The position numbers were made by a program, and so were the translations under genes. 64,000 nt of DNA from Natronosalvus caseinilyticus (GTDB lineage Archaea; Halobacteriota; Halobacteria; Halobacteriales; Natrialbaceae). Location of the stretch: NCBI RefSeq assembly GCF_017357105.1, contig NZ_CP071596.1, forward strand, positions 744,001 to 808,000, in the 5' to 3' direction. The first letter of the stretch is position 1; every line of letters begins with the position of its first letter. Of this stretch, positions 34,343 to 37,519 are shown in pieces. The notes below the pieces were generated by a model. That model ran no database searches. It had not been told where the DNA came from and worked only from the letters and a program-made list of their open reading frames with translations.

Positions 34343-34918
34343 ATGAGCGATACGGATACGAACACCGATCGAGCGTTCGAGGAGACGTTTGCAGACGTTC
34401 TCGACGCGGTTCCGGACGAACACGTCGATCGCTCGCGATTCGTTCCCGGCGTCGGATCGCAGTCGGCCGACGTGATGCTCGTCGGGGAGGCCCCAGGAAA
34501 ACAGGAGGTCGAGCAGGGAGAACCGTTCGTCGGCCAGGCCGGCGACCAGCTCGACCGGGCGCTCGAGTCGATCGGGCACGACCGGGGGGAGTGCTACATC
34601 ACGAACCTGGTCAAGGTCAGACCGCCGGAGAATCGCGACCCGTACGTCGCCGAGATCGAGGCCTGGCGGCCGGTGCTTGACGCCGAACTCGAGCGCGTCG
34701 ATCCGTCGGTCGTCGTGCCGCTGGGGAGTTTCGCGGCGCGGGAATTGCTCGACACGGACGAGACGATCACAGAGCTGAGCGGCCGGACACTCTCCTGGAA
34801 CGGGCGAACCGTCGTCCCCGCGTTTCACCCGGCCGCGGCGCTCTATGACCGCAGCAAGGTCGACGAAATCGAGTCGGCGCTCTCGCGGGCGTTCTCACAG
34901 GTGCTCGAGCAGTCGTGA
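34343..34918 (+). CDS. Family-4-like uracil-DNA glycosylase without Fe-S cysteines
   Basis: A 191-residue protein of the UDG superfamily. Motifs: VGEAPGKQEVEQGEPFVGQAGDQLDRAL, YITNLVKVRPPENRDP and FHPAAALYD, which match family 4 (thermophile-type) UDGs. Family 4 normally binds a 4Fe-4S cluster through four cysteines; here only one cysteine exists (in GECYIT), the N-terminal CxxC is absent, and the third is Val in VKVRPP. Function in base-excision repair of uracil is expected, but a cluster-free fold is implied. The DNA directly after it contains a 23-bp triple repeat. Confidence 0.85.
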   Translation: MSDTDTNTDRAFEETFADVLDAVPDEHVDRSRFVPGVGSQSADVMLVGEAPGKQEVEQGEPFVGQAGDQLDRALESIGHDRGECYITNLVKVRPPENRDPYVAEIEAWRPVLDAELERVDPSVVVPLGSFAARELLDTDETITELSGRTLSWNGRTVVPAFHPAAALYDRSKVDEIESALSRAFSQVLEQS

Positions 34919-34929
34919 GGGATGCGAAT

Positions 34930-34984
34930 GGCGGTTCGAGAGGGGTACGAACGGCGGTTCGTGGGGAACGTTGAGGGCGGTTCG
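34930..34984 (+). repeat. Three 23-bp tandem units
   Basis: GGCGGTTCG recurs at 34930, 34953 and 34976, exactly 23 bp apart, with partly similar flanks (GAG/GTGGGG/GTGAAG). It lies between the UDG and PRC-barrel genes. Confidence 0.55.
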
Positions 34985-35077
34985 TGAAGGGCGATTACAA
35001 CGCGAATAGAGGGGATGGTCGAGGCAAGACCATGCAGGCACGAACCACTTCGAACGGGCTGTGTTAGACCGACTCGT

Positions 35078-35923
35078 ATGAGTCCAGTATTCACCGCGGA
35101 CGACGTCGGCAAGTCGGTCGAGACCGCCTCGGGAGACACGGTCGGTATCGTCACCGCCGTCGACCCCGGAACGGCCTACGTCGAACCGGACCCGGAGATG
35201 GCCGACTCCACCAGGGCCGCGCTCGGGTGGGGCGGCCGGGAAGACGCCGTCCCCCTCGCGGACGACGCCGTCGACCGGGTTACGGAGGACGCGGTTCGAC
35301 TCGACCCGTCGTTCCCCGGAGAGGACCTGACGAGCGACGCGAACCCGGCCGACTCGGAGTTGCCATCGTCGGAAGCCTCGGGGAAGAACACCCCCGCTCC
35401 GGACGAGGAGTACACGCCGGGGGAACCGGTCACAGGCGACCAGGAGGAGCCGTCGCCGCCGCCCGGAGAGGAGGATCCGGACCCGGGGGCGGGCGCGGGC
35501 GAACGAATCGACGGCGACGAGGAACGACGGGGGGACCCAGCCGGCAATCCGGCGGACGTCACGGACCCCGTCGGCGAAATCGACGCCGCAGACGAGACGG
35601 ATCCGCTCGCCGACGGGGACTCGAGCGGGTCGGTCGATCCGGCCGCGGACCTCGAGGAACTCGAGGAGATCGAGGAAGCCCAGCGCCGGGAACTCGAGGT
35701 GGATCCGACGGAACTCACGGACAGCGACCCGGAAGCCGAGGTTCGTCCGGGCGAGGACGTCGGCCAGCGGACCGACGCGGCGGTCGAACCGGACGCGGTT
35801 CGCGAGGGACTCGAGGGCTCGGAGCGTTCGGGCTCCGAAGACGCCGAGGCGGAACGCGGCGACGAGGACGAGCGCCGAACGGAACGCGGTACCGACGAGC
35901 AGGACGACGAATCGAACCGGTAG
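35078..35923 (+). CDS. PRC-barrel-like protein with long acidic tail
   Basis: A 281-residue protein. The first 80 or so residues (MSPVFTADDVGKSVETASGDTVG, VDPGTAYVEPDPEMADSTRAALGWG) form a PRC-barrel-type domain. About 200 residues follow that are nearly all Asp, Glu, Gly, Pro, Arg and Thr, presumably disordered. It is paralogous to the shorter protein at 37100 and separated from it by one divergent gene. PRC barrels bind RNA or proteins; the role here is unknown. Confidence 0.75.
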   Translation: MSPVFTADDVGKSVETASGDTVGIVTAVDPGTAYVEPDPEMADSTRAALGWGGREDAVPLADDAVDRVTEDAVRLDPSFPGEDLTSDANPADSELPSSEASGKNTPAPDEEYTPGEPVTGDQEEPSPPPGEEDPDPGAGAGERIDGDEERRGDPAGNPADVTDPVGEIDAADETDPLADGDSSGSVDPAADLEELEEIEEAQRRELEVDPTELTDSDPEAEVRPGEDVGQRTDAAVEPDAVREGLEGSERSGSEDAEAERGDEDERRTERGTDEQDDESNR

Positions 35924-37099: not shown

Positions 37100-37519
37100 A
37101 TGTGCGCCACCTTCACGGCTGACGACGTCGGCAAGACGGTCGAAAACGACGAGGGAACGGCGGTCGGCGTCGTCGTTTCGGTCGAGGACGACACCGCGTT
37201 CGTCGAACCGGACCCGGGAATCGTGGATTCGCTCAGGGCAGCCCTCGGCTGGTCGTCCGACCCCCAGGACGCCGTCCCGCTCCACGAGAGCGACGTCCGT
37301 GCGGTCGACGAGACGATTCGACTCGAGGCGTTCCCCTCGAGCGAGGGGCCGTCCTGGGACGAGCGGGAGGCGGGCGACGCCGCACGCGGGGGCGGAGCTG
37401 GTACTGATACGGCGAAAACCGAGGATTCGGGCGCGTCTCGTCCCGCGGACATCGAGGACGCCCCGCCGGAGGGCGACCAGACGGTCACGAAGGAACGGGA
37501 ATTGAACGAGGAGCACTGA
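37100..37519 (+). CDS. PRC-barrel-like protein, shorter paralogue
   Basis: A 139-residue protein with the same N-terminal module as the protein at 35078 (FTADDVGKTVENDEGTAVGV, FVEPDPGIVDSLRAALGWS, QDAVPLHESDV). It has a short acidic tail instead of the long one. The paralogues are close enough in sequence to imply a duplication. Confidence 0.75.
   Translation: MCATFTADDVGKTVENDEGTAVGVVVSVEDDTAFVEPDPGIVDSLRAALGWSSDPQDAVPLHESDVRAVDETIRLEAFPSSEGPSWDEREAGDAARGGGAGTDTAKTEDSGASRPADIEDAPPEGDQTVTKERELNEEH

Follow-up and report, generated by a model that had tools for sequence, protein, structure and literature searches.

A uracil-DNA glycosylase gene of family-4 type lacking the four cluster cysteines in Natronosalvus caseinilyticus, and its likely function without an iron-sulfur cluster

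The window analyzed is a stretch of 64,000 nucleotides of the Natronosalvus caseinilyticus genome, to which coordinates refer unless another record is named. An open reading frame (ORF) with an ATG start occupies exactly positions 34343..34918 of the plus strand and encodes a protein of 191 amino acids, which family profiles and the predicted fold indicate to be a uracil-DNA glycosylase (UDG) of a cluster-free family-4 type. The protein matched the Pfam UDG family with an E value of 1e-31. According to the available parts of PMC10359453, family 4 is defined by a motif A of the form GE(A/G)PG and a motif B of the HPAAVL kind. The protein fits this definition with GEAPG (residues 48-52; 34484..34498, plus strand) and HPAAAL (residues 162-167; 34826..34843, plus strand); E49 and A50 correspond to E41 and G42 of Thermus thermophilus (Tth) UDGa, and H162 corresponds to H155. 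Both motifs, along with RPPENR at residues 93-98, had been noticed in a previous reading of this DNA from its letters alone (here, the sequence-only reading), and all three are present.

The NCBIfam family-4 profile TIGR00758 was matched with 157.1 bits, above its cut-off of 125.3, and the score for NF040953, the equivalog profile of archaeal type-4 UDGs, was 150.4 bits, below its cut-off of 250. The UdgX profile TIGR03914 scored 104.6 bits against a cut-off of 189.95. The available text of PMC10359453 describes UdgX by a GEQPG motif A and a KRRIH loop with the cross-linking histidine, and family 5 (UDGb) by GLAPA/HPSPLN. UdgX was ruled out by its score and by the missing GEQPG and KRRIH, in place of which the protein contains GEAPG and KVRPPEN. 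Family 5 was ruled out because GEAPG and HPAAAL stand where GLAPA and HPSPLN would be expected.

The four cysteines that hold the [4Fe-4S] cluster of family-4 enzymes are missing. Alignments with relatives place L20 (34400..34402), V23 (34409..34411), V92 (34616..34618) and W108 (34664..34666), all on the plus strand, in the ligand columns. L20 and V23 fill the columns of the N-terminal CxxC pair of four-cysteine relatives, and in a phmmer alignment with Tth UDGa (1ui0), V92 and W108 lie opposite the cysteines at chain positions 84 and 100. The only cysteine of the protein, C84 (GECYITN), is outside these sites. The sequence-only reading had described just this, namely a single cysteine and a valine in place of the one in the VKxRPP motif, here V92 of VKVRPP. 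As the four-cysteine feature fails, we classified the protein as a cluster-free variant and not as a standard member of family 4.

The same substitutions characterize a set of 41 cysteine-less rows, of which 26 are haloarchaeal (the N. caseinilyticus gene included) and 15 nanohaloarchaeal. This set, used for both counts and trees, comprises P0001, L020, L027, L036-L062 minus L046, and 12 further nanohaloarchaeal rows; L050 and L051 are identical and were each counted, and the other orthologs with G handles were left out. The ligand columns of these rows hold L or F, then V, I or L, then V or I (G in one row), and finally W in 41/41, so that a hydrophobic residue was observed in 41, 41, 40 and 41 of the 41 rows, respectively. 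Cysteine occupies all four columns in each of 57 four-cysteine rows of archaeal, bacterial and viral-contig origin.

The residues that line the uracil pocket or take part in catalysis have been retained. The available portion of PMC5387724 names E41, G42, E47, F54, N80, N89 and H155 for Tth UDGa and reports that E47 blocks thymine. Their counterparts here are E49, A50, E55 (34505..34507), F62, N88 (34604..34606), N97 (34631..34633) and H162, with the codons given on the plus strand, and these seven residues are invariant in 41/41 clade rows. N88 corresponds to the asparagine that pairs with N3 and O4 of uracil, N97 to that of the proposed water placement. The residue next to E55 is a further mark of the clade: V56 (34508..34510, plus strand) is valine in 41/41 clade rows, and aspartate in 54/57 four-cysteine rows.

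A model was predicted by AlphaFold2 from an alignment of 20 rows, with a pLDDT of 92.3 and a pTM of 0.88; the ten-residue blocks that contain the former ligand sites had pLDDT values of 89-95. Among solved structures, family-4 enzymes came closest, namely Tth UDGa (1ui1; Z score 25.5, rmsd 2.2, 181 aligned residues, 36% identity), followed by the Thermotoga and Sulfolobus enzymes. Tth UDGa matches the pocket at E41, E47, F54, N80, N89 and H155 and differs at the ligand sites, as detailed above. UdgX (6ail) shares the fold (Z 24.1) but contains GEQPG, KRRIH and a cluster, and family 5 UDGb (2d3y) likewise shares the fold (Z 19.4) but has its own motifs and a cluster. By descent, motifs and predicted fold, the protein falls within the lineage of family 4, and its mode of action is most likely that of the family.

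Orthologs were identified in 23 of 242 haloarchaeal genomes (N. caseinilyticus included), a sample from a larger group. They showed 58-77% identity and scores of 191 bits or more, and the matches below them fell to 148 bits and about 50% identity. The two other Natronosalvus genomes in the sample lack the ortholog. The four ligand columns were readable in 21 of the 22 further orthologs and held cysteine in none, the third column containing G in one case and A in another. The remaining ortholog, L018, aligned only at the last two ligand columns, and its separate N-terminal half shows L and V. Alignment A1 holds 20 of the 23 orthologs, since L018 contains a stop and L013 and L028 were missed by the motif filter. 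Two of the 23 copies appear decayed, namely L018, with its in-frame stop, and L028, which lacks the stretch that holds F62. L018 stems from the same record as L046, a Natribaculum breve plasmid, and the in-frame codon is TAA; this broken copy is one of eight plasmid records that carry the gene with 60-80% identity. The protein cores of L050 and L051, on plasmids of about 100 kb reported from Salinibaculum litoreum and Halostella pelagica, are the identical pair mentioned above. Four further haloarchaeal orthologs (L022-L025) carry an acidic, serine-rich insert of about 20-27 residues ahead of HPAAAL.

Every one of the 23 ortholog-bearing haloarchaeal genomes also contains a four-cysteine family-4 copy, namely L002 in N. 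caseinilyticus and its counterparts in 22/22 others. Two of these 22 matches (L302 and L308) are interrupted by one TGA, the four-cysteine stretch being open in each. L002 has the same catalytic motifs as the cysteine-less protein and represents its sister lineage, with about 46-50% identity for such pairs, but it keeps CxxC, VRCRPP and the fourth cysteine and has GEGPG and ED where the cysteine-less protein has GEAPG and EV. In haloarchaea the cysteine-less gene is thus a patchy extra copy. The loss may be an adaptation, as suggested by the sequence-only reading, but salt by itself does not account for it, because the same haloarchaeal genomes keep the four-cysteine enzyme.

The genome of N. 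caseinilyticus (4.2 Mb, two contigs) contains five PF03167 matches: the cysteine-less gene, L002 and three diverged paralogs. Two of the paralogs, L004 (1384-2055 of its own record, plus strand) and L005 (minus strand), keep some of the cluster-type cysteines and have E and D at the site of the catalytic histidine. Four Udg genes are listed for Haloferax volcanii in the accessible part of a review (PMC7776575), and haloarchaea have 3-4 family-4 homologs, of which generally one is active, according to the available text of PMC5295032. L004 and L005 are probably non-catalytic, and they fit the label "inactivated" since E and D replace the catalytic histidine.

A different situation was found in nanohaloarchaea. 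The phylum of nanohaloarchaeon SG9 was represented by 28 genomes, which are small and some of which may be incomplete; 19 of them contained exactly one PF03167 match and 9 contained none. The single match was of the cysteine-less type in 15 genomes and of the four-cysteine type in 3, and it was partial in 1 (L233). SG9, whose record is titled as a complete genome, has the cysteine-less type. The cysteine-less gene is thus the only UDG-superfamily match in 15 of the 28 genomes, which suggests that many nanohaloarchaea can dispense with the cluster.

Phylogenetic analysis was based on two trees, from each of which the four ligand columns were removed; of 110 rows, 18 were left out of tree 1 and 40 out of tree 2 (long branches, viral rows and near-copies). 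The cysteine-less rows of haloarchaea and nanohaloarchaea grouped in a single clade with bootstrap/SH-aLRT values of 100/98 (tree 1) and 100/97 (tree 2). This clade is sister to the haloarchaeal four-cysteine UDGs (92/90 and 100/92) and lies inside the four-cysteine archaeal and bacterial family 4, and not in a family that never had a cluster. The ligand cysteines were therefore lost in the archaeal clade, in agreement with the sequence-only reading, which had regarded the protein as a family-4 type that had lost them. Nanohaloarchaeal rows are placed among the haloarchaeal ones in the free trees; forcing the haloarchaeal rows into one clade was not rejected (p-AU 0.41), and the gene may have passed from haloarchaea to nanohaloarchaea or the other way.

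Viral origin was discarded: the relatives on viral contigs (50 loci, best identity 49%), phage records (best 46%) and viral folds are no closer than four-cysteine cellular enzymes. In pairwise alignments, 25 of the 50 viral-contig loci have cysteine in both of the last two ligand columns, and the rest vary. L083, from a Bacillaceae metagenome-assembled genome, lacks cysteine at the third and fourth sites and grouped with the cysteine-less clade in a quick tree (SH-aLRT 88), and it was kept out of the analysis owing to its long branch. It shares the motif EVEQGEPFVG with that clade and contains an insert in the RPP loop.

Family-4 genes without the ligands also exist in bacteria. One of them, L074, is from a Bacteroidota genome whose class, judged by its kin, we take to be Rhodothermia. 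In this class, 76 of 80 genomes have one family-4 UDG match each (E ≤ 1e-15), and the genes of 40 of the 76 were read, that of L074 included (L240-L259 and L280-L299 being its relatives); an alignment of the ligand columns covered 14 cysteine-less and 2 four-cysteine rows, and the remainder was read by eye. There were 37 genes without ligands, two (L292 and L293) with all four cysteines, and one (L299) too divergent to judge. The 37 ligand-less genes have K[S/H/T]RPP, and the fourth site is H, S or, once, G. A second bacterial group consists of L066, L101 and L261, from three Chloroflexota genomes; the third and fourth sites of these genes hold D and Y, and in tree 2 they lie apart from the archaeal clade. 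Their motifs are ESPLYPYR-like, VKDRPP or similar, and Y, and four-cysteine copies occur alongside in the two genomes read further. In the aligned rows of both groups, as in the archaeal genes, the four ligands are missing and the pocket residues are retained; the two groups differ from the archaeal genes in their substitutes (T/V..S..H or T/L..H..S in the Rhodothermia type, L/S..D..Y in Chloroflexota) and are found elsewhere in the tree. We know of no paper on either group. Cluster-free MutY homologs represent another glycosylase family that is said to have lost the cluster, and they belong to the helix-hairpin-helix superfamily, not to the UDG fold.

The number of losses was assessed by forcing these groups together. 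The tests disfavoured joining the archaeal clade with L074 alone (p-AU 0.018), with all Rhodothermia-type cysteine-less rows (0.016), and with Chloroflexota and L074 together (0.007); the groups had been named after the first tree, which makes these p values somewhat optimistic. Joining the Chloroflexota rows to the archaeal clade was not rejected (p-AU 0.27 and 0.21). In tree 2 the Rhodothermia-type rows without the cysteines do not form a single clade, since the four-cysteine pair is placed between them by weakly supported branches (92/73 and 81/54), which results in at least 4 changes of the cysteine-less label on this tree. The placement of that pair may account for part of the penalty on joining the Rhodothermia-type set, and L074 alone is disfavoured as well. 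The data support at least two losses, one in the halophilic archaea and another in a separate bacterial class, probably Rhodothermia; three or more losses are possible. That all cysteine-less family-4 genes instead go back to a single old cluster-free ancestor, without repeated losses, agrees with the Chloroflexota result but is improbable in view of the tests involving L074, of replacement residues that differ clade by clade, and of the two four-cysteine members in the class of L074.

Considering the intact pocket and the sole-match status in nanohaloarchaea, we propose, with a probability of roughly 0.8, that the gene encodes an active UDG that descends from cluster-bearing family 4 and functions without a [4Fe-4S] cluster, a hydrophobic plug having assumed the structural role of the latter. 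This reading relies on sequence comparison and a predicted model. Uracil would be flipped out and its N-glycosidic bond hydrolysed by the family-4 route, with H162 stabilising the leaving uracilate, N97 positioning the water, N88 reading uracil, and E55 excluding thymine. The substitutions at the ligand sites suggest that the four side chains pack as a small hydrophobic plug that would hold the N-terminal segment and the RPPENR loop together, which is the structural job of the cluster. The enzyme would initiate the base-excision repair of uracil, as a second copy beside the cluster-type enzyme in haloarchaea and alone in nanohaloarchaea. An active enzyme is also argued for by dN/dS values of 0.03-0.25, computed on stop-to-stop frames, in 8 of 9 sampled pairs giving a value, which indicate purifying selection; the 0.25 is that of L041/L042, whose frames included more than 100 codons preceding the gene, and L228/L229 had a dS of 1.49. 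Such an enzyme is mechanistically plausible, because the accessible text of PMC5295032 reports that Cys-to-Ser changes in the Pyrococcus and Archaeoglobus family-4 UDGs cost about 40% of the activity, so that most of it is kept, and that the cluster mainly stabilises. The patchy presence in haloarchaea (23/242) and the two decayed copies speak against essentiality there.

The same observations could point to a catalytically dead or regulatory paralog, an "inactivated" haloarchaeal family-4 homolog that only binds uracil-DNA. The single active homolog per haloarchaeon generally reported, the four-cysteine copy in all 23 genomes and the two broken-looking copies would agree with this. We nevertheless consider it unlikely, given that the seven pocket and catalytic residues are invariant in the clade, in contrast to the E and D at the catalytic histidine site of L004 and L005, and that the gene is the sole UDG match in 15 nanohaloarchaeal genomes.

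Slightly less probable still is an active glycosylase with a shifted substrate, such as hypoxanthine, xanthine or 5-substituted uracil. The sequence-only reading had raised the idea of a separate branch with another substrate, and the two parts of this idea fared differently: the branch is well supported and shows the replacement of aspartate by valine beside the thymine-blocking glutamate in all 41 rows, but the pocket residues of Thermus UDGa, that glutamate included, are kept, and the motifs differ from those given for families 3, 5 and UdgX. Continued binding of a metal or cluster by other ligands (Asp, His, the single cysteine, or a site formed jointly by subunits) is very improbable, as the substitutes are L/F, V/I/L, V/I/G and W, with A once, the core read contains no cysteine in 24 of 29 clade rows, and a high-confidence fold was predicted in the absence of any cofactor.

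The reading as an active cluster-free UDG has a wider implication, to which we give about even odds: the [4Fe-4S] cluster of family-4 UDGs may be a replaceable structural staple rather than an indispensable redox or damage-sensing cofactor, no fewer than two lineages (the halophilic archaea and the bacterial class that is probably Rhodothermia) having lost it independently with the active site kept, and many nanohaloarchaea having the cluster-free type only. If so, the uracil glycosylase of many nanohaloarchaea would work without iron and without a cluster-based search of DNA by charge transfer. It has long been asked why several glycosylases of DNA repair contain a cluster that is costly and sensitive to oxygen, and both structural roles and DNA-mediated redox sensing have been proposed, according to the available part of PMC9266487. 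Naturally occurring orthologs that lack the cluster but have an intact active site, present as sole match or beside a cluster-type sister in the same genome, would offer a matched comparison beyond laboratory Cys-to-Ser mutants. Among the open-access papers searched, titles and abstract openings mentioned no family-4 UDG that naturally lacks these cysteines.

The ORFs of the window were also compared with the surroundings of 27 named loci (L036-L062). The downstream gene at 34988-35920 recurred in 7 of the 27, adjoining in some and kilobases off in others, and no other window ORF recurred more than a few times around these loci. With one recurring gene at variable distance, the comparison gave no support for a conserved operon or partner. 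Three imperfect direct repeats with a spacing of 23 bases were observed at 34913-34991, starting at the stop codon of the UDG gene. Furthermore, a stretch of 141 bases occurs twice in the window (35090-35230 and 37112-37252; 72% identical), close to where two genes without a Pfam match begin.
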